64,000 bases of DNA from Chitinispirillales bacterium (lineage in GTDB: Bacteria > Fibrobacterota > Chitinivibrionia > Chitinivibrionales > Chitinispirillaceae), in NCBI GenBank assembly GCA_031283085.1, contig JAITCM010000144.1, positions 1 to 64,000 on the forward strand, in the 5' to 3' direction. Position 1 is the first letter of the stretch. Each line of letters opens with the position of its first letter. The notes under the pieces are model-generated. The model saw only the letters and a list, made by a program, of their open reading frames with translations, was not told the origin of the DNA and made no database searches. Made by a program: the position numbers and the translations under genes. Shown piece by piece: positions 18,839 through 62,018 of this stretch.

Positions 18839-19033
18839 TTCCCGCTCCCGATAATCGGTTTAACCTGTTTCTTTAATTTCACGCATCCCAATAATCCGGA
18901 CATTTTTTAACGCGATACGACGGCGGTACGACGAGAGAGCACCTCTTTACGACGAGAGTAACGCGGCGGCTGGCGGCGCGTCTTTACATAATATACATTA
19001 CGGATGACCCGGACGCAAAAATATTTAAAGATT

Positions 19034-44100: not shown

Positions 44101-44247
44101 CCCCCGAAGATCGCGGGCGGGTACGGCTTCGGAATGCGGGCGAACCTGGGGATTTTCGTGCTGAGATATGACAGAGGGTGGCCCACGGACTTTAGAGGGG
44201 GCGGAGGGGCGCCAATCAACTATTTTTCGCTGGGGGCGGAGTTCTAA
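41176..44247 (+). CDS. Zincin - TolB propeller - Omp85-barrel fusion
   Basis: A 1023-residue outer-membrane protein. A signal peptide is followed by a gluzincin metallopeptidase domain (HHEFVHAFVFG with a downstream WFNEGLAE Glu ligand, residues about 30-260), then TolB-type repeats (SPDGKRIAFFSDRHDYTRI, WSPDGKQLAF, FSPDGNKIIFAT) to about 560, a charged linker, and a C-terminal Bac_surface_Ag barrel (TLRFTPDLVIFGLGVS, IGLKYINGALFFDAGYAW-like strands) ending in Phe. No ribosome site is seen before ATG. The three domains each occur in known families, but I do not recall this exact order as common. Confidence 0.88.
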   Translation: MRTLILLIAAAILTILTLPSPAVPDDFGKNKVQYRYLDWSCLKAPRYTLYYHQDQGRLPELSCIWLDDVYRDLSYRFRFRHSTPVPVVLYESPALFEQTNIITELLPEEVGGFTEIFKNRVVIPHNGSLADLRHVLHHEFVHAFVFGMVYGGSILRAAGAQVPLWFNEGLAELLSSGWERQADMFMLDRMLNSTVPPPSPALDGYLAYKGGQSFLYYLHSTGTDSLFNRMLIEFKLTRSAEAAIERVYAKNMEELGKDWLRELRRIYWPEAGRRVNPETQASPVTAKERSRANVYPRASPDGKRIAFFSDRHDYTRIIITDTAGKELRRIGGEHSFGNSFESFRPMDGAIAWSPDGKQLAFVAKKGGKDEIRIVDAATARTRRTVRPPLTSTGGLDWSRDGNLLTFVGMSYGQTDIYLYNLASDELTVLVDTYESKDSPRFSPDGNKIIFATTDTAGLYSGPFSGVPRPTSDIAVYDIRDGGYRLLTETEWNDKQPAFSLDGSQFVFVSDRNGIDNLYIDSVDNPGKPRPLTDYTGKCANPDWAADGSAIVFDLFMNQSWNIWRLAKPLEKTLGDTALAPTVWARHEADTSIPFFKRAAVPAKDSVGVGDSVKAADGNAVRPYRSGDGKAGRRRGGIKDSEDARERPFAVDAPNDSIPPSERYTLRFTPDLVIFGLGVSTYSGASGQALATFSDIMGDHRVTLAGDLQVDIGDYAQIFASYEYLKRRVNMMAGGFYYKYYSYDGLGSRYFHDLETGGILGLSYPFSVFSRTDLNLSGRYIRREPLTGGTALERNALSASLGYSFDNILWGLTGPLAGIRASASTQLAPPLTFTDEAYISGDIDIRHYTHIFKRYVWANRLVLGASAGLGDSAHTARRYFLGGSENWFNYGVNAENYDKNIGYSYYSSLVSPLRGWNYFDITGDRALLMNTEFRFPFIREVSTVWPIPMQIKYINGALFFDAGYAWTGGDGDNNILPPKIAGGYGFGMRANLGIFVLRYDRGWPTDFRGGGGAPINYFSLGAEF

Positions 44248-46928
44248 TCGTCGCCGCGCAGTCCGCAACTAACCATATGGATGTTCGGATTACCATCCAG
44301 GTATGTAATGGCGGTAAGCGCCAAGGGGTGCATCAGGCTCAAATCAACACCATCCACGGGTTTAAAAATCACTCTGGAAATCAGCAACTCGCAATCTAAC
44401 TTGTCGTGTTCCCATCTATGATCGTCCGCCGACTTTTTATATTCCTCCACCAACTCAGAATAATCGCCTGGGTCGGCCTCTTTTTCGTTCAGCTTGTCAT
44501 ACAACCGTTCTTCCAACTCTTTTGCCGACGACAATGCGCCCTCTATGCCCTTTACTTTTGACCAATACCTCGTTTCACGCAATCTTAACAGGCTTAAGGA
44601 TAACTCATACGCGTCTCGAATTTTACGCAACGTTTTAGGGATAATCGGCTTTTCGCGTAATTCTTTACATAACTCATCAAACCTCGTTGATAAGTGTTTT
44701 ACTAAACGCGATAATATTTTAAGCTCATTCTCGCGTTCACAAATGTGACCCAACAGCTTTTCGTTTGCCAACAAGGGCAAGGAGAATGTTCTTCCGATTC
44801 TCTTATTGCCGCTTTCATCGTTACCCCCACACCGACCGACAATAGCTTTTATACATTCGCTTGTGTAGGAAACATTCGGATTGCATAACACAGTTGTAAC
44901 AAACGCAGGGCTTAACCCAATGTCTTTATTTTTTGAAAAATATTCGCCGCGGTATAAATCATATTCTACGTCCGACAATATCAGTGCCAATGTCGCGATG
45001 ATGTGTTCGACATAGAAACGTCCAATATCGTCAAATGATTTCAAGTTCAAGTCAAGAACCTTCTCTAAAATATCGGACGCTTTTTGCCCGATGTCCTGCC
45101 CCATTTCCTTTTGTTCTTTCTGTTTATACGGTAAGCCGACCCAGGCCAAAAATATCTGTCGGCACGCCGTGCGTACGCCGTATTCCCACCGCATCTCTTT
45201 ACGTTCCACATTATCGTTATAACGTCTATCCTTATCCCAGTCCCATTTGTCAACCTCATTTTCCGCTTCGCACAGCCCTTTATAAATTTTATCATAAATT
45301 TCCGTCAGAACTTCCTCATCCTCGCAAAACCCCATAACAAACGGCAAATACATACGTTCCGGCTCCCCTTCTTCTATAAGCAACCGTTTTTCCCCTGCTT
45401 CCTCATTCTTCAAAACGAACCGGTATGAATTTCTGTCGTTGAAGTCGTATACAAGTCGAACGTCAAATTCGGCGGCTGTTTTTAATTCGTCATCCATTTT
45501 TACCGTCGCCACGTATTTTTTATCCGTTATCCCGCCTATCGTCAACGGGAAGCGTATTTCCTTGTGCCCGGCGGGCAAAGTGAGTCTTTCTTCGCATTTA
45601 ATGACACGCGGTTCAAACAGGTTTTCAACGGTTTTATTATCTTCAACGAGAACGTATCGGCCTAAGCGTTTTTGTCTTTTGTCCACAATACGGTCGAGCA
45701 CCAATTTCGGCAAGGTTTCTATCCAAAGCGGAATGTCCCTTTTTTTTCTTTCCATGTATCGCGCCAGCGGCTCGCCGTGTCCGGCGTCAGGTAATAACAC
45801 AGGCATCTTTACGGCGGCACCGGCTAACGCCAAAAAATCACCGTACACAACGCATCCGACAAGTTTGTTGACCGCAACCACGTTTTTTGATACGTACCGT
45901 TTTAGGAAGTCCTTAGCTTCCGGCGCGCTTACTGTGTACAGCCGGTCTTTATAGACCAGGTCAAATGGGCGGCCGCCGCAAAGCAGCTCATGCGTTGCGT
46001 TGCCGCATATCAGCCGATCTATGGCCTCCTTAGACACAGGCAATCTTCTTTTTTTTAAATATTCCTCCCAAAATGCTTTCGCCACACTAACATAACTTAA
46101 CGGTTGTACGGCATCATCCAATTTATTCCTGTCGCAGCGTGTAAACATGATTTCGTTGTCATATTTCTCTCCGATTTCAGCTTTTATGGAGATTTTAACC
46201 GGCTCATTTTCAAACAGGTCTACCACGTCAATTTTCCCGGCATCACCTTTTCCAGCGCCGTAACAGTATCTATAGGCGGCCGCGACGGAGCGCCAGACAT
46301 ACGTATAGCCGGAAAATCCGGATTTAACGTTGTTTGAGAAGACGTCGGTATTGTCCGGCAGGTAATAGAATCTACCGTCGTTTTCCTCCATACCGTTCAG
46401 CGTCTCTTTCACGATTTCTGCGACATGGCCATAGTCATTCTTCACGCAACAACGCCGAACGCTGGCGATGTCGTTTAGCGCGAAATCCACAATCGCGTGA
46501 GGATGAATATCATCGTGCGACCCGCCGTCGTTGTAACTGATAAATTCCGCGCATATCTCTTTGCATATCTTTTCATTATTTTCAAAAAATACGGCGTTGG
46601 ATGCGATGTCGTATATGAAGCCGTTGTTTTTCAGTCTGACCGGACCGCGATCGGAGATAAACTCTTTGCCGGCGGTCTCTTTTATCATTGCCTGCAGGGC
46701 GTTTATTCTGTGTTCGATCTGCCCGGTATCTTCCGAAAGTTCCGTCAGCTCCGCCAAAGCGATACGGTCGTTCGCAGTCTCCGTTTGAGCGGTCGGTTCA
46801 AAAACGGCGGTTTCGTCCGGTTTCGCTTCCTCAATGGATTTAAGCGGCGCCGACGTTTTCTTACCGCCGTCATTTGTTTTGGACACATTGGGGTAACGTT
46901 TATTGAACCTTTCTATCTGATTATTCAT
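44244..46928 (-). CDS. Unrecognised 894-residue protein, last gene of the defence operon
   Basis: No family is recognised. The N-terminal 80 residues look disordered (Pro/Thr/Glu rich); the rest is mixed alpha/beta with Trp/Tyr-rich strands (YVWRSVAAAYRYCYG, VYDFNDRNSYRFVLK). There is no membrane helix and no clear nuclease or ATPase motif. A lone RFYVEH is in a hydrophobic helix and lacks the polar residue expected after Arg in HEPN motifs. Its stop overlaps that of the convergent zincin gene (CTAA) with no spacer. It overlaps the DUF2357 gene by 4 bases, so it is made with it. It could be a large scaffold or effector of the system. Confidence 0.8.
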   Translation of the reverse strand: MNNQIERFNKRYPNVSKTNDGGKKTSAPLKSIEEAKPDETAVFEPTAQTETANDRIALAELTELSEDTGQIEHRINALQAMIKETAGKEFISDRGPVRLKNNGFIYDIASNAVFFENNEKICKEICAEFISYNDGGSHDDIHPHAIVDFALNDIASVRRCCVKNDYGHVAEIVKETLNGMEENDGRFYYLPDNTDVFSNNVKSGFSGYTYVWRSVAAAYRYCYGAGKGDAGKIDVVDLFENEPVKISIKAEIGEKYDNEIMFTRCDRNKLDDAVQPLSYVSVAKAFWEEYLKKRRLPVSKEAIDRLICGNATHELLCGGRPFDLVYKDRLYTVSAPEAKDFLKRYVSKNVVAVNKLVGCVVYGDFLALAGAAVKMPVLLPDAGHGEPLARYMERKKRDIPLWIETLPKLVLDRIVDKRQKRLGRYVLVEDNKTVENLFEPRVIKCEERLTLPAGHKEIRFPLTIGGITDKKYVATVKMDDELKTAAEFDVRLVYDFNDRNSYRFVLKNEEAGEKRLLIEEGEPERMYLPFVMGFCEDEEVLTEIYDKIYKGLCEAENEVDKWDWDKDRRYNDNVERKEMRWEYGVRTACRQIFLAWVGLPYKQKEQKEMGQDIGQKASDILEKVLDLNLKSFDDIGRFYVEHIIATLALILSDVEYDLYRGEYFSKNKDIGLSPAFVTTVLCNPNVSYTSECIKAIVGRCGGNDESGNKRIGRTFSLPLLANEKLLGHICERENELKILSRLVKHLSTRFDELCKELREKPIIPKTLRKIRDAYELSLSLLRLRETRYWSKVKGIEGALSSAKELEERLYDKLNEKEADPGDYSELVEEYKKSADDHRWEHDKLDCELLISRVIFKPVDGVDLSLMHPLALTAITYLDGNPNIHMVSCGLRGDD

Positions 46929-47965
46929 ACGTCGGCCTCTTCTTCCGCGCCTACTCTGTCATTCTTGATTTTTATCGTTTTTATCACCGTTTTTCGCCCG
47001 TCTTTCACCAAAATTTTTACGCTTTCAACCGGTTTTCCGCCGCACACAATCCCAACGCCGTCTTGATATGTGACGACTCTCTCAAATATTTTGACTTCTT
47101 TTCCGGCTAAGACGGCATCGCCCACAGTGTCAGCCGACTTAATCAAAAGCTCCATGCGCAACAACAACTCGGGCAGTTTGTTCCACTTTCTCTCAATCCG
47201 CTCCTCGACCTTTTTCATGTTTTCCGTTTCACGCCGGACCACGCTATAGTATTTGTCGCATAAGAGGGCGTTGTTTGGAACGGCGGCGACCTGTTCTCTG
47301 ACATCGTTCAATCCAGTTTTTCTCATAGCGTTTTTTATCCATAAAAAGCCTTGCAGCTCCGATACCCTTGAGCAGCCGTCTCTCTTACCGCAATCGGCGC
47401 ATTCGGACTTTTCCACCAACATGGAAATATATTTGTACAACCTGCCGTAGAAATACCTAAGCGCCCTGTTTTCAACCGTATCCGGCGAAAAAACAGTCTT
47501 GCGCGTCAGAACGGTGTTATTGGGCTTAATCTTGTCCTCTATCTTCTCCTGCGGTCGTTGCGCGAGCCATTCCACAGTTTTGTGCGATACCTCGCGAACC
47601 CGCGAAACGTGCTGTTTGCAGCTCTCTTTTACAAGACGGGTACGCGGGTTAATCACGATTTTTTCAATGGCCGGTAAGGCTTTTAAGGCAATTTGTGTGA
47701 ACTCATCGTGCCGCAGCGGTCTTTCGCTCACGCATGCCGTTTCTTCCGCCGCCGCGGCGATTTCGTTTATGTAGCGGCTGAGGGTGGTATGGTTATATCC
47801 TCTCTGCAGCCTTTGAGTGAGCTCAAGTCTGTTATTCAGACAAAAATAGAACGAATCCACCGCGCGCAAAAGGTCGTACCACAAGACCTGCGCGGGGGAT
47901 AGCTTATCCGTTTCGCCGTTTATGATATAGTCAATCTTATTGGGGAGCGCCGGCTTATTCAGCAT
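46925..47965 (-). CDS. DUF2357 / McrC-type protein without visible nuclease domain
   Basis: Motifs seen: INPRTRLV (105-112), DTVENRALRYF (162-172) and NNALLCDKYY (231-240), which correspond to the DUF2357 region that usually precedes a DUF524 PD-(D/E)xK nuclease in McrC-like partners of McrB. Here the protein ends about 100 residues later, and I see no D...ExK set. A CX2C-type pair (CADCGKRDGC) may bind metal. It overlaps the McrB-like gene by 11 bases and the 894-residue gene by 4. Probably the structural partner of the ATPase, with cleavage left to another subunit. Confidence 0.75.
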   Translation of the reverse strand: MLNKPALPNKIDYIINGETDKLSPAQVLWYDLLRAVDSFYFCLNNRLELTQRLQRGYNHTTLSRYINEIAAAAEETACVSERPLRHDEFTQIALKALPAIEKIVINPRTRLVKESCKQHVSRVREVSHKTVEWLAQRPQEKIEDKIKPNNTVLTRKTVFSPDTVENRALRYFYGRLYKYISMLVEKSECADCGKRDGCSRVSELQGFLWIKNAMRKTGLNDVREQVAAVPNNALLCDKYYSVVRRETENMKKVEERIERKWNKLPELLLRMELLIKSADTVGDAVLAGKEVKIFERVVTYQDGVGIVCGGKPVESVKILVKDGRKTVIKTIKIKNDRVGAEEEADV

Positions 47966-50420
47966 TTTTACTTTTTACCCCGTCATCTTGCGGCACGCTA
48001 TCCTCAGCGTCCGGGACGCTCTCTTTTTTGTCCTCTAAAAACTCGCCGCTTTTCCACATAAAGACGCCGTAGGGCGCGGCGAGGGCGTTCGAATAGTCGG
48101 CGGACAGTTCCGGGACCTTTTCATCAATGATGTTTTTTATCGCGTCAAGGCAATCTCTCCTGACTTTACCCTCCGTTTCGATGCCTCTGAGTTTCGGCAT
48201 GACCTTAAACGCCACGGCTTCCGCGAAAGCTTTATCCCGCTCCTTTTTGGCCTCATCGGAATCGATTTTTTCACCGAACTCCGCGACGCGTGGGCACGCC
48301 GCCACGTAGTACTCTATGCTCTGCCACACGCGATGCCCCAGCGCCCTACCACCTTTCTCCAGGCACTCGCTGATACGCACTATCGTTTTTTTATATGCTT
48401 CCGCGGCCTTATGAAACCCATCTTTTTCGCACAGTTCAAGGTACTCTCTTTGCCATTTGACCCAAATCTTCCTGTCAAGAAGCCGTATCGCGTTGCTACC
48501 ATTATGTTTCAATTCACGGGACGCCAACACCTTCGGCCTGGGGAAAACTATGATGTTGCTCCTGTCCACCACCTTATCGGAGAGCCCCTTTGTAGTCTCG
48601 TCTTCGTTCATTGTCCCTATCCAGAGCATATTGCGCGTCAGCTTTATCGGCAGAGAGTCTATTCCGGCGCCGAGGTCAATATCTATTGAGGCTGCCTCAC
48701 TCTCTCTCTTATTCCTGTTCTCTTCCAATTTGCTGAGCATATCGCTGAAATACAGCTCTATATGCGCGAGATTCATCTCATCAAGCAGAAATAGCGACAG
48801 CTTTTTGAGAAAATCGCCGTTTTCCTCCTGCATTTGATACATCGCCCGCAAAATCGGTTTAGCCTCGAACCTGCGTTCCAGCGCGTTGTAGTAACCCAGC
48901 ATTGACGAAGGGCTGTCCCAGTCGGGCTTTACCGGCGTATTCATGAACAACAGCCCGCCGTACTGCGAGTACAAGCGCGGAAGCTCGGATTTGCCGGTGC
49001 CGCTCACACCCGCCAAGACGGTGATCGGCGACCAAATAGCCGTCTTCACGCAAGTGTGGAACGCCTCAATCAGCCTGTCCGAAAACTCGAACCCATCGCT
49101 TTTGATTCCATTCTTTATACCGTCAAGCCAATCCAATTCCGTCACGGCATTACCATTGTCAAACTCGGTGTATTTTCCGGTGAATACGCGCTTTGTAATG
49201 GGTCTCATACGGTATTCTCTCGACTTTTCGCCGTCCTTCAGCCTATCAAGCATATCCTTAATCTCTTCTATCTTATCGGCCTGCTTATCCACCATTTCTT
49301 TTAAGACAGTGTTTAGCCCCTCAAAACTTTTGAACTTCGCAACCTCAACTTCAAGTTCATCCCGCCGTCTTGACGCCACTTCCAAATCGCTTTTCAGTTT
49401 TTCATACTGATCGGCCCTGGTAATCACACTCGCGTGCAATTCATTTTGAATCATTTCAGCCCGTATTTTCTCAAGCTCTTCCTTAATTGCCCTATTCTCG
49501 TCAAGCAGGTCGGTTTTGACCAATGCCTCGCTTTTCCGGTATTTGTATTGGTACTCCTCCTTTTCTTTATTTACTCTCTTCAACTCCGCGTAGAGGATGT
49601 CTATTTGATTTCTCAACTCCATGTTATTGCTTTCAATCATGCCCGCCGTTTCGCCGACCTTTTTTTCTATGTAGGCCTCCAACGCGTCTTTTTGACTTTC
49701 AATCGAGCGTTTCATGAGAAGGAGTTCCATATTACGCTGATCCAACGCTACTTTCTTATCCTCGTTTTCTTTACGCGCTTTTATGATGTCATCATCCACC
49801 TGGGCAAGCTTATTTTCGCGCCACTCCGATATTTTTTTCTCAGCCTCCCTGCGTCTGTTCACGGATTCTTCGACATACTCGACGCTCTTGTTGGATATTG
49901 CGTCATTTAAATTGACCAGCGACGTTATGACTTTATCCGTTTCCGAGAGAGCCGATTCCAACCGTTCTTTGGCGGCGTCAACGACCTCGGCATACAACCC
50001 GCCGAACCCCTCGCTACTTTTTCGGACGGATTCACGCACCTCGTATAATGCCGATTTAATTTCGGAAACGAGGCGATTCCCTTCGTCATCGACACACTTT
50101 ATGGTCTCTTTGCGTCCGGATATAAGCTCGTCCAACTCCTTTTTCCGCACGGAAATGTCGTCTTCTATCTCCTTTTTTCTGTCAGAAAAGCTTTTATCCA
50201 GTTCCTCTTTCCGCCGATCAAACGATTCTTTGAGCGCTTTCATCTTTTGGTCGAGTATTTCGTAATCATCGCGTAACCGCCGGCCCTCCTGTTCCGCGGA
50301 TTTACGTTTTTTTTCGACTTCCGCCAATCTCTCTTCGGCGCTCCGCAACTCAGGCAATTGCCGGACAGCCGGATCATTAATCGGTTGCGCCTCTCCCGGA
50401 TTGTTCCTGTTGTGTTTCAT
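47955..50420 (-). CDS. McrB-like AAA+ ATPase with long coiled coil
   Basis: Residues 25 to about 400 are a nearly continuous heptad coiled coil (RKKEIEDDISVRKKELDEL, KRVNKEKEEYQYKYRKSEAL). The C-terminal half has Walker A GVSGTGKS (471-478), Walker B LFLLDEMN (543-550), the sensor GTMNEDETT (602-610) and an Arg in DKVVDRSN, as in McrB-type GTPase/AAA+ proteins. It would form a ring motor next to the DUF2357 protein. The coiled coil replaces the usual DNA-recognition domain of McrB, as in CoCoNuT systems. AAGGAT precedes ATG. Confidence 0.88.
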   Translation of the reverse strand: MKHNRNNPGEAQPINDPAVRQLPELRSAEERLAEVEKKRKSAEQEGRRLRDDYEILDQKMKALKESFDRRKEELDKSFSDRKKEIEDDISVRKKELDELISGRKETIKCVDDEGNRLVSEIKSALYEVRESVRKSSEGFGGLYAEVVDAAKERLESALSETDKVITSLVNLNDAISNKSVEYVEESVNRRREAEKKISEWRENKLAQVDDDIIKARKENEDKKVALDQRNMELLLMKRSIESQKDALEAYIEKKVGETAGMIESNNMELRNQIDILYAELKRVNKEKEEYQYKYRKSEALVKTDLLDENRAIKEELEKIRAEMIQNELHASVITRADQYEKLKSDLEVASRRRDELEVEVAKFKSFEGLNTVLKEMVDKQADKIEEIKDMLDRLKDGEKSREYRMRPITKRVFTGKYTEFDNGNAVTELDWLDGIKNGIKSDGFEFSDRLIEAFHTCVKTAIWSPITVLAGVSGTGKSELPRLYSQYGGLLFMNTPVKPDWDSPSSMLGYYNALERRFEAKPILRAMYQMQEENGDFLKKLSLFLLDEMNLAHIELYFSDMLSKLEENRNKRESEAASIDIDLGAGIDSLPIKLTRNMLWIGTMNEDETTKGLSDKVVDRSNIIVFPRPKVLASRELKHNGSNAIRLLDRKIWVKWQREYLELCEKDGFHKAAEAYKKTIVRISECLEKGGRALGHRVWQSIEYYVAACPRVAEFGEKIDSDEAKKERDKAFAEAVAFKVMPKLRGIETEGKVRRDCLDAIKNIIDEKVPELSADYSNALAAPYGVFMWKSGEFLEDKKESVPDAEDSVPQDDGVKSKNAE

Positions 50421-50430
50421 TTTTTATCCT

Positions 50431-52455
50431 TTATTGTGAAAATTTTGACACTTCCGTAATTTGCGTCTCCACCAGCTCAAGATACTGCGCGCACCGTTTA
50501 ATTTCAAACGGCTTTCCGTTGTGCCCTATATCCTCGTACAATTCATTGACGAGCCTCAGCGCCTGTTTGTTTTCGACTAAGACTTTAATAAAGCGTTCGT
50601 GAGCAATCATGTCGAGAAACTTTTGCGCGAGCAACTGCTTTCCCGTCCCGGACTTCAACACCGGCATACCGGAGAGCATTGTTTTATCAAATCCGGCATT
50701 CGACAGACACTCAATCACCGTCTCGTTTCGCTTCGCTCTGTCATCTTGCCAGTTAAGGCCGGACGGCGCCCCGCGGTACAACTCAATAAGCGTGTTTTCG
50801 CAGTCGGCATAAAACGATGAGTCGGAATTCACGAAACTCGCGTACGCCCGCGTAAACCGCCTGCGCAATTCGGTATCTTCGTTTAGCCCAAGCCGCTTTG
50901 CCGCATCGTCGCCGAGACTTGCCACATCGTTCATTTGCCTGTTTTGCCGCTTTACCGGGCCCAACTCCTCAATTATATTGATACCGTACAGCGCCTTTTC
51001 CATTTTGCCCGCAAATCTGACAACGCCGTCGGCCTCAAACGCTTGCCCCTCGTGCTTACCCATGTTCCGTTTATTTAAGATATCAAGGTTATCAAACTCT
51101 ACCATAAAATCGGCGTATTCGGTTTTCAGCCTCTCTACCGGTTCATATTTCCAGTCCATAGCATATCTTACGAGCAAAGCTATAATAGCAGTAAACAAAT
51201 CCGCCTGTTTCTCTTCAAACAACATTCCATACGCCTTCTTGCCGCACACTCCCGCAAAATAATCGTACATACCGTCTTTATACCGCAAACCGGCATCCGC
51301 AAAAAGCCGTTCTATCGTCTGCTTTTTCACCGCGTCGCGCATATCGCACACGCTATCTTTTATTCTTTCTTTCTTTTCTTCAGGCTCACGGTCAAGAATC
51401 GCGCATATTTCACGCTCGAGAACTCCGCAGCACTTTTCGTAAACACCTCTCTTCTCCCGTTCCGCAGCCGCCGTTATCGCTTCCTGCCGCTCCCAAATAA
51501 GCCGCCGCAAATCCGCGTTCAACCTTAAATTATACTTATTGTCAATTTCGCGAATCGATGACATATCATTATCATTATCACAGGCCCCGTACCGCCCTTC
51601 CAGCGCTTTGAACCTCTTTTCCAGCGCGTTACGAAAATCAACGAACCTTTCTTTTGTATCGTTTATTATCTTATCACGCATTCCGATATCAGTTTTGCCT
51701 TTTGAACGAATGCTGCCAATGCTCCAATTGTCCGACGCTACCGTATATTCCCGTCCTTTGCCGAGACTGATACGCGTCCATTTCACAGAAACCGCGATAT
51801 ACGCCTTAATGGGATATCCGTTCGGATATACGTCAATGACTCTGTATTGCCCCATATCCGGATCCAAGTCGACATCTACAAGCAACCGCCTTACCTCAGG
51901 CGCAAGCCCACCGTCTTTTTGAATCAATTCACAACACTCGCTGAAATCCTTGCCGACCGGTTCCGAATGGCATATTTGGCTCTTATAAGAAAAAATTTTC
52001 AAGTCATTTGTTTGCAATTCTATTAAATCCGTAACCGCGACGGCATTCCGGCATATTACGCCGGTAATATGGTTAAACACAACGTACGCTCCTGTTCTGA
52101 CATCGCCGCAAACATCAGCTTTCGTTTCGCCGTCGGACTCATGAAGATCATTCTTATCGTTTAAAGCTCTACGATAGCGTTTTTCGCCCGACTCGATGTC
52201 TTTGGCCTGTTTCTCCTCATCCTTTATGTCATCCGTTATCTTTTTTATCAGCTCGGGTGCCTGACACAGCTTTTCGGCAATTTCCATGTGGCTCATCAGG
52301 GCGTCCTGTTTTTTAAAGCGCTTAACCGCAGTCGCGATGAAATCGTCGTCAACCGTTCTTTCCGTCCTAACTACGGGAAGCAAGGTAACCGGCACAAGAG
52401 CGTATATGTCGGCCTTTTTATCGATGCTCTTATTGTAATAAACCGGGTTCGTCAT
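50431..52455 (-). CDS. Unrecognised 674-residue protein with HEPN-type RNxxxH motif
   Basis: No overall family is recognised. Residues 463-468 read RNMGKH, preceded by a hydrophobic helix (YADFMVEFDNLDILNK) and followed by a small-residue turn and helix, matching the RX4-6H ribonuclease motif of HEPN domains with the favoured polar residue after Arg. The N-terminal 300 residues are mixed; 310-385 is charged and possibly coiled (EREKRGVYEKCCGVLEREI). It overlaps the helicase gene by 4 bases; GGAGGG precedes ATG. Candidate RNA-cleaving effector of the operon. Confidence 0.65.
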   Translation of the reverse strand: MTNPVYYNKSIDKKADIYALVPVTLLPVVRTERTVDDDFIATAVKRFKKQDALMSHMEIAEKLCQAPELIKKITDDIKDEEKQAKDIESGEKRYRRALNDKNDLHESDGETKADVCGDVRTGAYVVFNHITGVICRNAVAVTDLIELQTNDLKIFSYKSQICHSEPVGKDFSECCELIQKDGGLAPEVRRLLVDVDLDPDMGQYRVIDVYPNGYPIKAYIAVSVKWTRISLGKGREYTVASDNWSIGSIRSKGKTDIGMRDKIINDTKERFVDFRNALEKRFKALEGRYGACDNDNDMSSIREIDNKYNLRLNADLRRLIWERQEAITAAAEREKRGVYEKCCGVLEREICAILDREPEEKKERIKDSVCDMRDAVKKQTIERLFADAGLRYKDGMYDYFAGVCGKKAYGMLFEEKQADLFTAIIALLVRYAMDWKYEPVERLKTEYADFMVEFDNLDILNKRNMGKHEGQAFEADGVVRFAGKMEKALYGINIIEELGPVKRQNRQMNDVASLGDDAAKRLGLNEDTELRRRFTRAYASFVNSDSSFYADCENTLIELYRGAPSGLNWQDDRAKRNETVIECLSNAGFDKTMLSGMPVLKSGTGKQLLAQKFLDMIAHERFIKVLVENKQALRLVNELYEDIGHNGKPFEIKRCAQYLELVETQITEVSKFSQ

Positions 52456-55400
52456 GGCAAAAGCCTCCCTCCGGGTTTTTCCTTACATAGCTCCCGAAAC
52501 AGTTTTATTTGCCCCATATCTTTAAGCATCTCCGGCGCGCCGACGACTATAAGCAACTTTTTTTCGCGGCTCAACGCGACGCAACGACGGTTTTCATTAT
52601 CCAGGAACCCGATATTTCCGGCATCGTTCGCAACAGTAACGGACAAATAGACTACATCGAACTCTTTGCCTTGAAAAGCGTCGACCGTGCCGATAAACAA
52701 TGTGTGACCGCAATTGGCGTACTTGGGCGCAATGGACGCTACGTCGTCTTCGCCGCGCACCATCGAATCGTTTTCAACAAGCTTGCCCTCCATGTATTCG
52801 CGTTGCGCTTTATAAAACGATATTATCCCTATTGACAACCGTTTGCCGCAAGTGTCTATCGCGTCCTTTACATCGCCGGCAATCCATTCAGCCTCACACG
52901 GCCTGTAGCGGGAATTTTTATTGTTTTTCTTTTCAAATCCGTACTTAACGGGCAACTCCTTAAAAACGGCGCAAACGTTTTTATACTTAGGTATGTTGTG
53001 CTCGAATTCTTTTGTGTCTTTTTTGCCGTTTTCCAGCTTTCCATTATAAAACTCCGCGCTTACAAAGCTGCCCAGAAGCGGCGGAGAGCGGAATTGCTCG
53101 CTAAGCATCACGAAGCGCCTGATGCCGTCGCGCTCTTCCATTCTTTTGGCCACATTAATCAGCTTTTCAAAAAGCGAGCAATCCGCGTCGACATCGGTAT
53201 CGGCGCCATCATCGGTTTGCGGCAATGCCCCGCTCTTTTCCTTTACTTTTTTCATAGCCTCTTCAAACAGCTTTTTGTCTTGAAATTGCGGCAATTGGTG
53301 ATGATCGCCCACTAAGACGACGCGCTTTGACGCACGGGATATTACGACGGCCAAGTCATTCGGGCTTGAACGGGCCGCCTCGTCGACAATCACATTTTCA
53401 AATTCCGCCGCGCCCGCTTCCTCGCCGCTTCCGCGGAAGTCCATATTTCCCCAATTGCCGTCCAACTGATGATGGGTACTGCCGACGTACTTGTTGTATT
53501 TTTTTATAGCGTACAGCGTTTCGCCGTAGTTGTTTTTGTATGTGTGGATATAGTCCGAAATAATCTCCGCCTCAAGGTTGTAGCTCTGCGCGAGCCTGTC
53601 CTCAATCTCGCCGAGCATACCGCGTAGCGTTTCGCGTAAGTTTTGTTTTTCCGACTTGTTGATAACCGGCTTTTTGTCCGCCGTAATCTCCGCGACAAGG
53701 CGTGACCTGTGTTTAAGCGCCGAATCGAATTTTCCATCCTCAACATCCGCCTTATATCCGTCTAACGCCTTTTTTATCTTATCGTCTTTAAGCAACCCAA
53801 ACGTGTCCAAATAATCCTTAACCGTTTGAAAGCATAATTTTCCGTCGTCCTCATACGCTGTTTTGCCGCACCTTAAGCGATTCGCCGCCGACGCCACCTG
53901 AATAATATGTTCTTTAACGTTCGTCTTTGCGGCATACTTATCACGCAAATCCCTAAGCTTTCGCAGCGATTCCGGCATATAGTTTTTCACCAAATCGATT
54001 ATCCCGTCTATATAGCTACGGACATTGTTGAAGCTAAGTTGCATATGGTCGAGCGCGGCTATCCGTTCCTTTATGGTGTACAGTACCCCTTTTTCGGCGT
54101 ATTTGGGGTACTTTGCCGTCAGTTCTTCCGCCTTTTCCCTGATTTGACAGGCAAGCGGCAAACTAAGAATCTTCGCCGCGTTTTTATCCTTGCCGCCGTA
54201 GCGGATGCACGGCAGACCGTTGACCGTAGCGTGTTCCATAAGGTTGTCGAGCGCGTCGTGCTGGTATGCCGTAAGCAATGTACCGTTTAGCGGCTTATCG
54301 CGCCCCTCAATAGCCTTGATAATAGCGCGAATCAGCCCTGATTTTCCGGTTCCAGGCGGCCCGAGTATGACGGCTATATCCGGTGTCTCATAGGCCACGC
54401 GCAACGCCTCCGCCTGATTAGGCGTGGGCGGGTACGCAAAATATTTGCCCATATCCTTTAAAGGTATATTTTTATTCCGCGCCCCCCTGTACCGTATTTC
54501 GTTTTCGGCATTGATCCCCAAAAGTATCTCGGACAATTGGGGCATCGGCGTCTCCCCTTCCATAATCCGTGCGTACTCACGCTCTATGGTATCAAGCATT
54601 CTTGTCTTTTTGCGACCGGAAACGAGTATATAAGCGGTGTTTTCTATCATGTTTCTGCCGATTTCCTGATCCTTTTGAAGGACAATTTTCCCCTTTTCTT
54701 TGGACGCCGCAATATCAACATTGATTGTATTCTTGCCGTTTTTCCTCAAATATTCACGTACTTCAGATACCAATTTTCCTTTATCCTCGCGAGATTGCCC
54801 TTCCAGCCTGTCGCGGAATTCGTTCATTTTTCCCACAACCGCACCGTCGTTCTGCGCAGGCAACAGGTAACAGTCGTCAATACCGGTCTTATCCATTTCG
54901 GAAATGAAATCGGAAAGAACGTTCGTTCCGCCGTCCTTGACGATAAAACCGTCGTCATAGTCGCCTGTTTTGAGGACTCCGGCGTTTACGCAGGCGTCGA
55001 TTATCCGCTCGTAATCGGAAAAGCAGTATTCGCGCCACAGCTCCAAGTACGTGTTATTTCGCCCGTTGATATCCCGCCGTACGCTTTTACGCAAAATTTC
55101 TCTTTTCTTTGTAAAAAGCCACCCCGTTTCAACCGACATAATCTTATACTCGTAGTCACCGCCATTCCTGAGCGGGCGTCTTGTCACGGCGTTTATGTAC
55201 GGATTATCCTCATCATCACCGGTTACGGCGCAATCCAACGTGACACCCCCTCCTTTACGGTCTACTCCGACAAATACAAACGAATCATTTCTCATCGATT
55301 CATCATATCCGGCAAGCCTCTTTCTCGCCATTACGACAATATTGCCTCCGCCGACCGAAAAGACGAACTCGCTTGACAGCCCGTCCAAACCGGATTTGGC

Positions 55401-55748
55401 TCCGGCTAAGAAATCATCGGAGACCGTAACGCCCTTTATCCCTGATTTTTCGCACGGTAAAAAATGGAATTCATGCAACACGCCATTATCGCTGAGCTTG
55501 ACAACCCCGATTGTCCCACCGTTTTCCAAACTCGCCGAAACCGCTTTTTCTTCCGATGTTTTTTTAAATCTGACTAGAACAGGCGCAGCATCCGCCCCAT
55601 CCGGCCTAACACAAATACCGCCGGAATCCGTCTTGATTATTCGGCAAACACGGCTCCGGCTTCCGCCTTGCAAGGCATCCGCGAGTTGACACTCGGCGTA
55701 AAGCAACTTTACCGGCGGGATGTAGCGCTCAATGTCCTTTAATTCCAT
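52452..55748 (-). CDS. SF1 helicase, UPF1/DNA2-like, with large N-terminal region
   Basis: 1098 residues. The helicase motifs start at Walker A GPPGTGKS (463-470), then VIVDEAARSSPNDLA (Walker B, 787-800), VLVGDHHQLPQ (811-821), LSEQFRSPPLLG, GIISFYKAQ and the GTVDAFQGKEFD / ALSREKKLL motifs V and VI, as in AAA_11/AAA_12 (UPF1, DNA2) enzymes. An insertion of about 230 residues separates motif Ia from motif II. The N-terminal 430 residues are unassigned; a strand-rich part near YKIMSVETGWLFTKKR could be an OB-like domain. Starts in TAATG overlap with the kinase stop. Likely an RNA- or DNA-translocating subunit. Confidence 0.88.
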   Translation of the reverse strand: MELKDIERYIPPVKLLYAECQLADALQGGSRSRVCRIIKTDSGGICVRPDGADAAPVLVRFKKTSEEKAVSASLENGGTIGVVKLSDNGVLHEFHFLPCEKSGIKGVTVSDDFLAGAKSGLDGLSSEFVFSVGGGNIVVMARKRLAGYDESMRNDSFVFVGVDRKGGGVTLDCAVTGDDEDNPYINAVTRRPLRNGGDYEYKIMSVETGWLFTKKREILRKSVRRDINGRNNTYLELWREYCFSDYERIIDACVNAGVLKTGDYDDGFIVKDGGTNVLSDFISEMDKTGIDDCYLLPAQNDGAVVGKMNEFRDRLEGQSREDKGKLVSEVREYLRKNGKNTINVDIAASKEKGKIVLQKDQEIGRNMIENTAYILVSGRKKTRMLDTIEREYARIMEGETPMPQLSEILLGINAENEIRYRGARNKNIPLKDMGKYFAYPPTPNQAEALRVAYETPDIAVILGPPGTGKSGLIRAIIKAIEGRDKPLNGTLLTAYQHDALDNLMEHATVNGLPCIRYGGKDKNAAKILSLPLACQIREKAEELTAKYPKYAEKGVLYTIKERIAALDHMQLSFNNVRSYIDGIIDLVKNYMPESLRKLRDLRDKYAAKTNVKEHIIQVASAANRLRCGKTAYEDDGKLCFQTVKDYLDTFGLLKDDKIKKALDGYKADVEDGKFDSALKHRSRLVAEITADKKPVINKSEKQNLRETLRGMLGEIEDRLAQSYNLEAEIISDYIHTYKNNYGETLYAIKKYNKYVGSTHHQLDGNWGNMDFRGSGEEAGAAEFENVIVDEAARSSPNDLAVVISRASKRVVLVGDHHQLPQFQDKKLFEEAMKKVKEKSGALPQTDDGADTDVDADCSLFEKLINVAKRMEERDGIRRFVMLSEQFRSPPLLGSFVSAEFYNGKLENGKKDTKEFEHNIPKYKNVCAVFKELPVKYGFEKKNNKNSRYRPCEAEWIAGDVKDAIDTCGKRLSIGIISFYKAQREYMEGKLVENDSMVRGEDDVASIAPKYANCGHTLFIGTVDAFQGKEFDVVYLSVTVANDAGNIGFLDNENRRCVALSREKKLLIVVGAPEMLKDMGQIKLFRELCKEKPGGRLLP

Positions 55749-57151
55749 TATTCCGCCCTCCGAAACACCACACGCGCCGTAAATTCATCGGGCGCTTTGG
55801 TATTGGTAATCCAAACGGTGTCGCCGGGCATTACCGCCGACTGTTCCTGTTCGAGCTTTCGCGCACCGGCGCCGTCAAAAACATCGTGCTTATAACCGTT
55901 TGGCGTTGACACCTTTACTTCTTTGTCAGCCGCTTCCGCAACCAGCGCCGCGGCCTCATCCAGCGAAGAGAGCACCATTTTATAATCCAGGATATCCGTT
56001 TTTCCATAGAGAACGGCGATGTGTGTCGATACCACGCCGTAGCCGTCGCCGGTCGGCGTCAAAATATCGGTTTTTGCCAGCCAGCCGGAGTGGCGGCGGC
56101 CTTTGTGCAACAATTCCGCCACATCGTAGTAGTGGTGCGCCCCGCACTCTTCGCAGTAGCACACGCGTCCGGCGGCTTCGCACAGAGCCGCATGCCACTC
56201 CGCCGCCGACGGGCGCCCCTCAAACCGCTTGCGAGAATTGCAGCTAAACGCCCGCTCAAATAACCCCAGCATTTTCTTTGTGATGCCGAACCGCCACGGC
56301 AATATCCCGTCGCCCGGCCGATTGGAATCGTCTTCACTGTCGTATATGAAAGCCTTTCCCCCCTCTTCCGCCGGTTCATCCGCGGCAGCCGACGGTTCGG
56401 CGTCCCAACCCGCCTCTTCCGACGAAACCCCGTCAAACGGGTCATTTATGTTTAACAGCCTGTACGCCAATAACGCGAAAGAGTATATGTCGGAAGCGGC
56501 GGTGTTCGGTCGGCCCCCATCTTTAAAACCGGCACATTTGACGACCTCCGGCGCCCCAAAACCCGGCGTATAGAGCGGGCCGGCCAATCGCCCCGTACTG
56601 ATGTTGTCCGCGTCAATAAGCCATATTTTGGCATCGCCGGACGCCATTGATTTAATATCCGGCATTTTGGAGATAAACACATTTTTCTCTGAAATATCGC
56701 CGTACACGGCGCCGGCGCCGTGTATGTAATAGAGCGTCTTCGCTAAGTCCTTTAATAGCAATAGCCTGCGTTTTAATCCCCCGCCGGCGTGGTACTCCTT
56801 CAACGGTTCTTCGGCCTTTTCACACTTCATAAGCGAACCTACCGGTTTGCCGCCGTCCAAAAAACGCATGACGTATCCCTTGTCCGGCTTCGCGAGCTTA
56901 ACTATGGGACGGGCGAGCCCTGCTTTCGGATGAATAAAGATGCCGGATGTTTTGTCAAGCGACTTTTCGTATTCTTCGTATGATTTTTTATCGTCAAGCG
57001 CGATTTTTATTGCTATCTCTCTGTCATGCGACAGATAGACCCTGCCCTGACCGCCTTCGGCTAAAGGCTCTTCCGGCGTGTCGTAGCGGTTGCCGTCCAC
57101 ATCGATAAACGTCCGATGTCCTTGTCGCTTTGCGCTCACTTTTTTACGCAC
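55748..57151 (-). CDS. Ser/Thr-kinase-like protein of a TerY-P triad
   Basis: Kinase features: the glycine-loop AEGGQGRVYL (31-40), Lys49 in AIKIAL, YGDISEKNVFI (150-160) in place of HRD...N, LIDADN (178-183) in place of DFG, and the GAPEVV motif (199-204). The aspartates and Asn needed for catalysis are present despite the altered flanking residues. After residue 325 a CYCEECGAHH cluster may be half a zinc ribbon, followed by a C-terminal beta domain (TDILTPTGDG...). TerY-P kinases are known to carry such extra nucleic-acid-binding ends. It overlaps PP2C by 8 bases and the helicase by 1. Confidence 0.85.
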   Translation of the reverse strand: MRKKVSAKRQGHRTFIDVDGNRYDTPEEPLAEGGQGRVYLSHDREIAIKIALDDKKSYEEYEKSLDKTSGIFIHPKAGLARPIVKLAKPDKGYVMRFLDGGKPVGSLMKCEKAEEPLKEYHAGGGLKRRLLLLKDLAKTLYYIHGAGAVYGDISEKNVFISKMPDIKSMASGDAKIWLIDADNISTGRLAGPLYTPGFGAPEVVKCAGFKDGGRPNTAASDIYSFALLAYRLLNINDPFDGVSSEEAGWDAEPSAAADEPAEEGGKAFIYDSEDDSNRPGDGILPWRFGITKKMLGLFERAFSCNSRKRFEGRPSAAEWHAALCEAAGRVCYCEECGAHHYYDVAELLHKGRRHSGWLAKTDILTPTGDGYGVVSTHIAVLYGKTDILDYKMVLSSLDEAAALVAEAADKEVKVSTPNGYKHDVFDGAGARKLEQEQSAVMPGDTVWITNTKAPDEFTARVVFRRAE

Positions 57152-57839
57152 TCTCTTTTATGACGATGAGCGTTTTATCATCGCCGGATTTCGGCCTCGT
57201 CCAACGGTTGAGCAGCTTCTTTACATACCCGTTACGCCCCCGCTGTTCCACCCGTTTCGCCACTTCATTGATCACAAACTCGGCGAAATCAAACAATCCG
57301 CCCTCTTCTATGTCGTCGCTTACCCCATCCGTCGCCAACATCAGCTTTAGCCCGCCGGACGCCTGTTCGTCGCGGTATCGCCAATCTTGCGGCTTGCAAG
57401 TATCCATGGCATCGGTAGAGTTGGCGAAGTCCTTTCCATTCAGTTCCAACGTTTCCCGTTTACCCCCGCTATCTATCGTGATAACCCCGTCGCCGAGCGC
57501 AGCAGCAAACAAGCGCCCTGTGCCAAAGCGTATCGCAAACAGGCACGTACACGCGCACGCCCGCACATCCAAACCGGAAAGCCTCACACGCCAAATCGCA
57601 TGGACAAGGCGGATAATGTCAGCCCCCCCGGTCGCCGGAACAATCATTCTGCTTGCCGTTAAAACGCTCCGCACCGCGGCCTTTGAGCCGACTTGCGAGT
57701 TTTCCCGGCTGCCGAGCCCGTCGGACACCGCGGCGACATACATGGTTTTTGCGCGCGCCACAACCCAAGCGTCCTGATTCGGGCAACCCGTGAGCAAATG
57801 CGTCTTGCCTGTCTTTGACGCGCCGCCATACGTTAACAT
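57144..57839 (-). CDS. PP2C-type protein phosphatase of a TerY-P triad
   Basis: PP2C metal-binding motifs are present: NQDAW (21-25), SDGLGS (39-44), LGDG (115-118), ATDGVSDD (169-176) and GDDKTLIV (219-226). 231 residues, cytosolic, without attached domains. It would reverse phosphorylation by the adjacent kinase. Translationally coupled to both neighbours (7-base overlap with vWA, 8-base with kinase). Confidence 0.92.
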   Translation of the reverse strand: MLTYGGASKTGKTHLLTGCPNQDAWVVARAKTMYVAAVSDGLGSRENSQVGSKAAVRSVLTASRMIVPATGGADIIRLVHAIWRVRLSGLDVRACACTCLFAIRFGTGRLFAAALGDGVITIDSGGKRETLELNGKDFANSTDAMDTCKPQDWRYRDEQASGGLKLMLATDGVSDDIEEGGLFDFAEFVINEVAKRVEQRGRNGYVKKLLNRWTRPKSGDDKTLIVIKESA

Positions 57840-58495
57840 ACATCAAAATCGCTTTCGCCGGATATATTAGGCACGATATTCGGATTGACGCTCTTCGTAC
57901 GGGTACCGACACTCATGGTAACGTACTTGAAGAACTTCACTATCTCTTTCGCGTCGCCGAGGAAAACCTTTTCTTCTTTAGAAACAAACTCCGAAAGCAT
58001 CCTGTAAGCCGGATCGCCCTCCGTCATGTTCACCCCAAGCGCGAGCCTGTGGCACTTTGACGTCCGCGGAGCATTCAAGAAACTATCAAAGTTCGACCTC
58101 CAATCATCGGTAGGCACACCATCCGAAACCAACACAACGGCAGGCCTATAGGCGTTGGACGGGATCTTTTCCTTATCCTCGACAAGCCCCTCGACAATGG
58201 ATATCGCCGAACCGAGCGGCGTACCGCCACACGCGCTCATATCCGTCCATTTCAACTCGTTTGCGTTTGTCAGCGGATACATCATTTTCGCATCCCCGCC
58301 GAATGTGACGACGGCGGCCTTAATCTCGGCGATTACGCTTTCGTCCTTTGAAAAGGCCTCCAACATCTCTTTTACACTTTCGTTGAGCGTATGGATGGGC
58401 TCTCCCTCCATGGAGCCCGAAACATCCAACATCAGAATTACCGGCAGCGTTTTTGCGCTCTTTTTGATTGAATCCGGCATCTTGAAATCATCCAC
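57833..58495 (-). CDS. TerY-type vWA-domain protein
   Basis: A 220-residue von Willebrand A domain with a complete MIDAS: DVSGS (24-28), Thr92 in GGTPLGS and Asp125 in LVSDGVP. It matches TerY in size and in association with PP2C and kinase genes (TerY-P triad). The start is GTG at 58495, with GGAGGG 5 bases upstream; the internal ATG at 58480 is less likely. It probably binds or regulates the phosphorylated partner of the defence operon. First gene of the eight-gene unit, 33 bases after the GH1 stop. Confidence 0.9.
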   Translation of the reverse strand: MDDFKMPDSIKKSAKTLPVILMLDVSGSMEGEPIHTLNESVKEMLEAFSKDESVIAEIKAAVVTFGGDAKMMYPLTNANELKWTDMSACGGTPLGSAISIVEGLVEDKEKIPSNAYRPAVVLVSDGVPTDDWRSNFDSFLNAPRTSKCHRLALGVNMTEGDPAYRMLSEFVSKEEKVFLGDAKEIVKFFKYVTMSVGTRTKSVNPNIVPNISGESDFDVC

Positions 58496-58528
58496 TTTAT
58501 CCCTCCATATCTTTTTGATTGATTGTTA

Positions 58529-59880: not shown

Positions 59881-60963
59881 TCACCCCTTCCCCTTTCTCC
59901 TGTTGCAATCCTTGCACAGCATCTGTAAATTATCCGGCTGCGTCTTGCCGCCCTCCGACCACGGGGTAACGTGGTCGCCCTCCATATCGTCAATCTTAAA
60001 CGTTTCTTCGCAAATCGAGCACTTGCCGTTTTGCTTTTCAAAAGCCTTGCGCTTTTGGCTCTCCGTAAACGCCCTGATATTCAAGTGTTTTTCATCGCCG
60101 GTAATCAGGTATTGATAGATACCGGATTTTTTGGTAACGTCATCATCCTCCATAAGCTCTTTCACACGGCTTTCCAAGTCGGAAGCCGACGGCAACTTCT
60201 TTTTGCCGTGCTCATTGTACAGTTCGCCCCACGGGAGCCCTTTCATCTCCCTCCGATACGCGGGGAAAACAGCCTTTACCCATTCTATGACCGCGCAAAA
60301 ATAAAGCCATAACTCATTGGCGCTTTCTTCATGCTGATGCTTAGACATATACTCGTTAATATGCCCCTTGCCGAACCAATTTATAGCGGTTTCCAAAAAA
60401 TCCTGCCTTATCGGGGAACCGTTTACGTAATCTTTGGCGAGATTGTAGGCGGCGCAGTTCGTTTTGCTAAAATGGCGCTTCGCGTCGGTGAGCCATGGAC
60501 CGGTATAGATAGCGTTCCTTAACTCCTGTTCGGTTAATCTTTCTCCGGCGGTATTAATGATTCTGAACCACGCTAATTTCTCGCTGTCCGTGCCTTCGCA
60601 GAAATAGACCATGCATTTGTAATTAAGGATTTGTTCCCGTTCATCGTTCGTGAGATTATACCACGCGCGGTCACCTATGGCGTATTCGCCATTAACGTAC
60701 TGACAAATCGAAACTGTCCGTTGCTGGCCGTCAAGAATTTCGAACATATCTCCGCTCTTCATCCAATACATGACGTTAAGCGGAAAATTTTGTCGTATCG
60801 TCTCAATAACGGCGTTACGTTGCCTGTCCTTATAGACAAACTCGCGTTGATACTTCGGGCGGATATTTAACTTCTTTTCATAGCCCAATACGCCCTCTTC
60901 CTGGTTGTCTGTGTAACCGTTTACGATGTCGCGAATCGCAATTTCGTGTAACGTGATGTTCAT
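59881..60963 (-). CDS. DUF262 (ParB-like) - HNH endonuclease fusion
   Basis: DUF262 motifs: RPKYQREF (35-42) and DGQQRT (78-83), the ParB/GmrS-like nucleotide-hydrolysing core. The C-terminal 50 residues form an HNH domain: CSIC (315-318), GDHVTPW (329-335), DNLQML (344-349), CKDCNRR (350-356). Such fusions (GmrSD-type) act on modified or unmethylated DNA. The start overlaps the methyltransferase stop (ATGA). It precedes GH1 by 2 bases. Confidence 0.9.
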   Translation of the reverse strand: MNITLHEIAIRDIVNGYTDNQEEGVLGYEKKLNIRPKYQREFVYKDRQRNAVIETIRQNFPLNVMYWMKSGDMFEILDGQQRTVSICQYVNGEYAIGDRAWYNLTNDEREQILNYKCMVYFCEGTDSEKLAWFRIINTAGERLTEQELRNAIYTGPWLTDAKRHFSKTNCAAYNLAKDYVNGSPIRQDFLETAINWFGKGHINEYMSKHQHEESANELWLYFCAVIEWVKAVFPAYRREMKGLPWGELYNEHGKKKLPSASDLESRVKELMEDDDVTKKSGIYQYLITGDEKHLNIRAFTESQKRKAFEKQNGKCSICEETFKIDDMEGDHVTPWSEGGKTQPDNLQMLCKDCNRRKGKG

Positions 60964-62018
60964 ATTTTACCCCCAATGTTAACCTGTTTATTTTTGATTA
61001 AAACACGCGCGTATGTCTCTTTGTTTTTGAACTTGAAACGGTGTCCATAATTAGGGTTGTCTTCAACATACCTATCAAGACCGATAATCTCAAACTGTTC
61101 GGGATTATATTTATCAATAAACGTAATTGGAACCCCCATTGCCCCGTTATAGTCAAAGGGTATATCGGCTACTTTATCAACGTTTATCGCGTTATAATTA
61201 TCAAACGCCGGATAATTTTCCGTCGAATAACTTTTAGACAGTATCATATTCTCGTGTCTTTTGACATGGTCTAAATTAGTAAACCACACAATAGAGCCTT
61301 TACTGAAATACTTGACGCCGTTTTCAATCTTTATCCTTGATTGAGTCTTAATCTCATAATGATACGGAACCTGAAACCATTTTGTGCCGCCGTTATCTAT
61401 CCCAAGCCAAATTTTATTATCCCTAATCAACATAAAAACATCTTTATATGAAAGCGCGTTTAAATCGCCGATAATCAAAAACTTCATATCATTCTCAACA
61501 AGTTGCGCCACATATTCCCTAAACAGCGAAAACGGCGGATTGGTAACGACAATATCGCTTTCCTTGAGCAACTCAACGCACTCGGCCGACCGGAAGTCCC
61601 CGTCGCCGTTTAACCGGGAAAGCGTATTGTTCCTGTTCTTTGCGAGCGAAATGACTATATCGCGCAAATCAAACCCGCCGTCGCAGTTTTCGTCCACCGC
61701 CTCATTAACAATGATTTTGTGGGGAACCCTGGTCGTCTTGTTTTCCGGCGTCTCATATTCGAACAGCGAAAGCTCTCTATTCGCGACAGGCGAGCCGATA
61801 TAGCAGGTGGCAATTAATTTCTTTAACCCCAAGAAATTAAAGCCCGTGGCAAAATATTTGAAAAAGTTGCTCTCATACGGATCATCGCAGTTGCAAAAGA
61901 CGGTTTTGCCCAAAAAATGCCCTTTGTAGTGCTTGAGTTCTCTCCCAATATCGGAAAGCTGGGTATAAAACTCGTCGGCTTTTTGCTTTTTCGCTTTATT
62001 TAAGTCGGCGTTTGCCAT
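60960..62018 (-). CDS. M.EcoRI-family adenine-specific DNA methyltransferase
   Basis: 352 residues. VFCNCDDPYESNFFKYF (40-56) and NPPFSLFREYV (160-170) are signatures of the EcoRI-type N6-adenine methyltransferase family. The motif IV sequence NPPF is complete. GGAGG precedes ATG. It forms a coupled pair with the DUF262-HNH gene: a plausible modification/restriction module in which methylation protects the host from the nuclease. The recognition site cannot be read from the sequence. Confidence 0.92.
   Translation of the reverse strand: MANADLNKAKKQKADEFYTQLSDIGRELKHYKGHFLGKTVFCNCDDPYESNFFKYFATGFNFLGLKKLIATCYIGSPVANRELSLFEYETPENKTTRVPHKIIVNEAVDENCDGGFDLRDIVISLAKNRNNTLSRLNGDGDFRSAECVELLKESDIVVTNPPFSLFREYVAQLVENDMKFLIIGDLNALSYKDVFMLIRDNKIWLGIDNGGTKWFQVPYHYEIKTQSRIKIENGVKYFSKGSIVWFTNLDHVKRHENMILSKSYSTENYPAFDNYNAINVDKVADIPFDYNGAMGVPITFIDKYNPEQFEIIGLDRYVEDNPNYGHRFKFKNKETYARVLIKNKQVNIGGKI

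Follow-up and report, generated by a model that had tools for sequence, protein, structure and literature searches.

A probable horizontally acquired CoCoNuT inside type III-A, with CnuC and CnuD encoded by separate genes, in a Chitinispirillales bacterium

Introduction

The window, a stretch of 64,000 nucleotides from a Chitinispirillales bacterium, carries an eight-gene operon that is most likely a horizontally acquired CoCoNuT lying inside type III-A, in a lineage in which the CnuCD protein has come to be encoded by two genes, one for CnuC and one for CnuD (a reading to which we give a probability of roughly 0.8). In the main text of Bell et al. 2024 (PMC11090510), CoCoNuTs of types II and III-A carry TerY-P, CnuH, CnuE (HEPN), CnuB and CnuC; in type III-A, CnuC and CnuD form one fused protein, CnuCD, that includes Hsp70-like and HEAT-like parts, and TerY-P is very frequent without belonging to the core. 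A separate CnuD is described there only for types III-B and III-C, which according to the same text never carry TerY-P; the literature that it cites links TerY-P to the tellurite and stress response. Because a TerY-P/McrB CoCoNuT is thus already described (PMC11090510), the operon is not a new kind of system, and the suggestion of a possibly novel subtype, made when the DNA was first read from its letters, survives for a variant only: TerY-P, a HEPN effector and unfused CnuC and CnuD are a combination outside the main-text scheme of that paper, whose rule that TerY-P never accompanies a separate CnuD is extended here. The operon therefore offers a natural experiment on CoCoNuT architecture, with identical parts but CnuC and CnuD as separate proteins, so that the proposed RNA-sensing subunit can be expressed, tagged or omitted alone, which is impossible with a fused III-A protein.

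Results

Gene content of the operon

Eight open reading frames occupy the minus strand from 44244 to 58495 and encode proteins of 220, 231, 467, 1098, 674, 821, 346 and 894 residues, with successive junctions of -7, -8, -1, -4, +10, -11 and -4 bases (Table 1). All eight genes are identified by sequence, profile, tree and structure evidence. The sequence-only reading had described eight genes on a single strand, neighbours overlapping by up to 11 bases or lying up to 10 bases apart, and had labelled five of the products as vWA, PP2C, kinase, SF1 helicase and DUF2357 proteins; the reading frames bear out the former and Pfam the latter (VWA_2, 1.8e-10; PP2C_2, 1.6e-27; Pkinase, 3.1e-10; AAA_12/AAA_11 of SF1, 3.5e-36; DUF2357, 4.7e-8). 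Its RNxxxH protein is the 674-residue CnuE, where the motif reads R463-N-M-G-K-H468, its nuclease-less DUF2357 protein does consist of 346 residues with DUF2357 as the only domain, and the product of 894 residues that it left unnamed comes from a real gene and can now be called CnuD. The Pfam scan yielded a weak AAA_5 match as the only one for CnuB, nothing significant for the 674-residue protein and zero matches for the 894-residue protein. PADLOC gave the vWA protein a weak TerY match (3.5e-4) and assigned CnuB to the candidate defence family PDC-M26A (4.3e-32), while CnuH matched the IGHMBP2 family (TIGR00376). A search of the window for ncRNA and tRNA found none.

Table 1. Features of the operon and of the block that contains it (positions in the window)
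Feature	Position	Strand	Evidence and remarks
vWA protein, TerY-like	57833..58495	-	VWA_2; MIDAS D24-x-S26-x-S28...T92...D125 intact
PP2C phosphatase	57144..57839	-	Pfam; III-A blastp; metal-binding Asp residues kept
Ser/Thr kinase of TerY-P	55748..57151	-	III-A STK profile 4.6e-84; K49, D152, N157, D180, D182 kept
CnuH, UPF1-like SF1 helicase	52452..55748	-	TIGR00376; III-A CnuH profile 6.8e-161; Walker A/B, motifs IV-VI kept
CnuE, putative HEPN effector	50431..52455	-	hhalign E 3.3e-5; R463xxxxH468 kept, I643-G-H645
CnuB, coiled-coil McrB GTPase	47955..50420	-	Walker A, Walker B, NxD N605-E-D607-E
CnuC, DUF2357, 346 aa, without nuclease	46925..47965	-	CnuCD profile 2.8e-34; corresponds to N-terminal part of III-A CnuCD
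CnuD, predicted Hsp70-like NBD/SBD and helical C-terminal part	44244..46928	-	corresponds to remainder of III-A CnuCD; profile 2.4e-29
14.28-kb insertion	44248..58528		between TolB/Omp85-like gene and GH1 beta-glucosidase gene

A CnuCD profile from which the window was excluded matched CnuC over profile positions 50-255 of 1231 (114 bits) and the 894-residue protein mainly over positions 451-797 (97.7 bits). Alignment of the latter with III-A CnuD by hhalign reached a probability of 99.8 over 649 columns, the reversed sequence giving nothing, and in blastp it resembled the C-terminal half of the CnuCD of III-A plasmids. Its AlphaFold2 model has a mean pLDDT of 60.7, better at residues 160-520, and a helical C-terminal part; in Foldseek, DnaK and other Hsp70s made up nearly all of the top 50 matches (best DnaK 5nro_A, E 2e-8, probability 1.00). 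The low TM-scores (about 0.4 by target) are explained by the limited confidence in parts of the model and by an alignment that covers the chaperone part alone. The nucleotide motifs of this Hsp70-like protein are degenerate; when profiles were run against PDB sequences, nothing useful emerged for CnuD. Profile matches and predicted fold together identify the protein as an Hsp70-like CnuD.

Phylogeny and gene neighbourhood in relatives

When compared by blastp with the plasmid-borne III-A operons of Photobacterium (L005), Caballeronia (L006) and Phytobacter (L008), the operon matches gene by gene: CnuB is 33-45% identical (E to 9e-113), the matches of CnuH, STK, PP2C, vWA and CnuC are clear, and the vWA protein is 43% identical to that of the Photobacterium system. 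In a careful CnuB tree of 63 rows the window forms a clade (98/94) with L051, from an uncultured Clostridiales, and L063, from Oscillibacter, within a Bacillota-rich III-A group of 14 rows (98/93); the identical trio appears in the CnuH tree (95) within a group of 11 rows (99), although long branches, that of the window in either tree and those of L051 and L063, call for caution. On these trees the operon is placed phylogenetically inside the type III-A CoCoNuTs.

Relatives were collected by a scan with a CnuB alignment, one genome per species, which found 313 loci, of which the best 80 were kept. These 80 were fetched with CnuB alone, and in 74 of them (of the best 80 of 313), spread over many phyla, CnuH, CnuE, CnuB and CnuC(D) stand together on the same strand, so the association of the genes is not due to chance. 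PP2C and STK were also detected in 53 of the 74, contig ends or the 10-kb flank truncating many loci. The proposal of a CoCoNuT-like system is thus upheld and sharpened to a place inside type III-A by the NxD motif and the CnuB and CnuH trees. Of the two outcomes that had been named as counting against it, neither was observed: the McrB domain has NxD and falls inside III-A, and the genes are linked in other loci, though absent at this site in three congeners.

Insertion site and mobility

The TolB/Omp85-like and GH1 genes adjoin in those three congeners, with the operon missing and a gap of about 33 bases in one of them (G007), so the 14.28-kb block is a clean insertion; its GC content, 49%, lies below the 57% of the left flank. 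Among 168 genomes of the phylum, close CnuB relatives were found in the window genome and in G059 and G126 (another family) only. Since these last two have canonical III-A operons with fused CnuCD and fall elsewhere in the CnuB tree, the window copy was probably acquired separately, and vertical inheritance within the phylum was rejected for this locus in view of the empty site in the three congeners and of the fused state and tree position of the G059 and G126 systems. The G059 locus (L091) has one in-frame TAA within the CnuB match, its other III-A genes being detected.

A restriction-modification-like pair at 59881-62018 lies 1.4 kb upstream of the CoCoNuT, with the GH1 gene between; an EcoRI-family adenine methyltransferase gene (PF13651, 5e-132) overlaps that of a GmrSD_N (DUF262)-HNH protein by 4 bases. 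Relatives do not have this pair between the GH1 gene and an aldolase gene, which suggests a second insertion very close to the first.

These observations bear on whether the operon serves defence at all. A regulatory or proteostasis system, in which TerY-P signalling, an Hsp70-like protein and a UPF1-like helicase would deal with stalled ribosomes or damaged RNA, would suit the Hsp70-like character of CnuD and the link of TerY-P with stress and tellurite responses made in work that PMC11090510 cites. We nevertheless regard it as distinctly unlikely: a mobile defence system fits better because the insertion is patchy and absent from congeners, relatives are plasmid-borne, a restriction-type gene pair lies nearby, and the RNase motifs are kept in nearly all relatives.

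Active-site residues and the diverged effector CnuE

The TerY-P trio is present with its catalytic residues, and the vWA MIDAS, the PP2C aspartates, the K/D/N/D residues of the kinase, the Walker A/B and IV-VI motifs of CnuH and the Walker A/B and NxD motifs of CnuB are all intact. The C-terminal zinc ribbon of the kinase keeps its first CxxC (C333, C336) and has lost the second Cys pair, one of two thus remaining. CnuB has NxD rather than NxxD (N605-E606-D607-E608), N and D being kept in 79/79 relatives; N-terminal to the GTPase, residues 21-410 have a heptad power of 1.05 against 0.34 +/- 0.09 in shuffles (0/500 as high). At the N-terminus of CnuH, which in III-A bears an SmpB-like OB domain, the hhalign match spans residues 96-420 (probability 97), not the first 95.

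Of the eight genes, cnuE has diverged the most. Pairwise searches for its relatives in plasmids, phages, viral contigs and the collected loci found none, and profile alignment alone succeeded: an hhalign comparison with 75 III-A CnuE sequences aligned 301 columns at E 3.3e-5, where the reversed control gave 0.23, and with a smaller set the N-terminal winged-helix region also aligned colinearly. Profile searches of PDB sequences returned chiefly HTH proteins for the N-terminus, consistent with the reported winged helix. The HEPN1 motif RxxxxH is kept (among relatives R in 71/75 and H in 75/75), while the RxH of HEPN2 is altered, with Ile in place of an Arg that 72/75 relatives keep, so that the two-HEPN trait of type III-A is here reduced to one complete motif. 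The predicted CnuE model, of poor quality (pLDDT 60.6), is too weak to establish the HEPN fold independently, and in Foldseek it retrieved no HEPN fold, only meaningless helical matches. A putative HEPN nuclease by its HEPN1 motif and remote III-A CnuE homology, CnuE, alongside a DUF2357-only CnuC, corresponds to the CoCoNuT trait of a missing or inactive McrC nuclease with another nuclease present.

Because the HEPN2 Arg is gone and the zinc ribbon incomplete, the system could be decaying or rewired. Were it a III-A CoCoNuT in decay, with CnuE, the zinc ribbon and the link between CnuC and CnuD breaking down and phage restriction lost, those two losses and the high divergence of CnuE would be expected; eight open frames with >4,700 codons in total, tight couplings and otherwise intact catalytic residues argue against it, and we hold decay to be slightly less probable still than a non-defence role.

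CnuC and CnuD as separate genes

The cnuC stop and cnuD start overlap by 4 bases (ATGA) at 46925-46928, a purine-rich stretch precedes cnuD, and CnuD begins with a long low-complexity linker, so that the single fused protein of type III-A is here replaced by proteins of 346 and 894 residues. Fused CnuCDs in relatives measure 1014-1415 residues (76 collected from the 80 kept loci and three plasmids). Among the best 80 of 313 CnuB loci, separate genes occur only in L051 (638 + 919 residues) and L063 (372 + 900 residues), a frequency to be read as an estimate since only those 80 were kept. Both resemble the window in having CnuC apart from CnuD together with the other III-A genes, and in forming one clade with it; unlike the window, they keep the HEPN2 Arg, and their CnuE sequences are hardly comparable with its CnuE. 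As these two clostridial loci share the split and cluster with the window in the CnuB and CnuH trees alike, the simplest reading is a single fission that took place within III-A rather than an unfused state inherited from an ancestor. Loss of the cold-shock domain was dropped as a hallmark of the split, that domain having been scored by Pfam in just 14/38 fused CnuCDs.

That this is an ordinary III-A CoCoNuT whose split is only apparent, arising from a frameshift or an assembly error, is the least credible alternative and very improbable: the assembly is fragmented (144 contigs) and broken frames occur in other loci (L025, L061, L074), but cnuD has its own start, the purine-rich stretch, the ATGA overlap and the linker, and two independent clostridial loci break at the equivalent place and join the window in two gene trees.

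Three observations on other loci touch on these genes. In the Clostridiales III-A locus L025 (3663-9222), CnuH and CnuE are each broken across frames while the adjoining CoCoNuT genes are open, which may reflect decay, sequencing error or recoding. The CnuC of L051 (11647-13563) has a C-terminal DUF6273 after DUF2357, where CnuD would otherwise be fused. Viral contigs were searched for a relative of the split CnuD and none was found; L130, an IMG/VR contig classed as viral, encodes CnuB, a CnuH-like helicase, a DUF2357 CnuC and a separate CnuD-like stretch, and resembles III-B/III-C.

Comparison with published CoCoNuT types

The traits that define CoCoNuTs and could be tested by sequence (NxD, coiled coil, nuclease swap, CnuH) are all present. 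With type III-A the operon shares the content and order vWA, PP2C, STK, CnuH, CnuE, CnuB, CnuC-CnuD, the NxD GTPase, the lack of a McrC nuclease and an Hsp70-like CnuD; it differs in having CnuC and CnuD as two genes, in the lost RxH Arg and in the incomplete zinc ribbon, and has no CARF gene or extra ATPase. Because the CnuCD fusion and the RxH motif are absent, the operon is filed, on its sequence, as a split-CnuCD variant inside III-A and not as textbook III-A. Types III-B and III-C likewise have CnuD as a separate gene; their effector, however, is Vsr or PLD, neither of which the Pfam scan detected in the window, the main text of PMC11090510 describes them as never having the TerY-P that is found here, and the window CnuC, at 346 residues, is too short for an inactive PD-(D/E)xK domain. 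Type II has TerY-P, CnuH, a HEPN CnuE and a coiled-coil CnuB in common with the window, but its CnuC is about 610-750 residues long (loci L126-L129) with a nuclease given as inactive in PMC11090510, it has no CnuD, and the window CnuB does not group there. Assignment to type II, III-B or III-C was rejected on architecture and tree.

Proposed mechanism

A literature search found no experimental test or measured activity of any CoCoNuT, and the following scheme draws on what is known of the protein families. The TerY-P trio would sense infection or stress and set the system by phosphorylation and dephosphorylation, a switch that the literature hypothesizes; the Hsp70-like CnuD and the N-terminal domains of CnuH would recognise aberrant RNA or stalled ribosomes; CnuC would stimulate the CnuB GTPase hexamer, whose coiled coils would hold the complex together; and CnuH would drive RNA into CnuE, where the first HEPN domain would cut it, with arrest of phage growth or shutdown of the cell as the outcome. 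We infer that RNA cleavage would in this way be gated by phosphorylation and GTP. As a separate, translationally coupled subunit, CnuD may dock and leave. A bolder proposal, which we consider unlikely, is that the split-CnuCD lineage forms a functional subtype, in which CnuD would be a dissociable Hsp70-like sensor as in III-B/III-C, TerY-P would exert phosphorylation control, each CnuE of the window system would have one active HEPN site, and recruitment of CnuD, not a built-in fusion, would time RNA cutting.

In the III-A locus of a Thermoguttaceae bacterium (L039), the kinase of the first TerY-P set is short and PP2C was not detected there; just downstream, at 16303-20405 on the opposite strand, lies a second TerY-P-like set of PP2C, two vWA proteins and a kinase.
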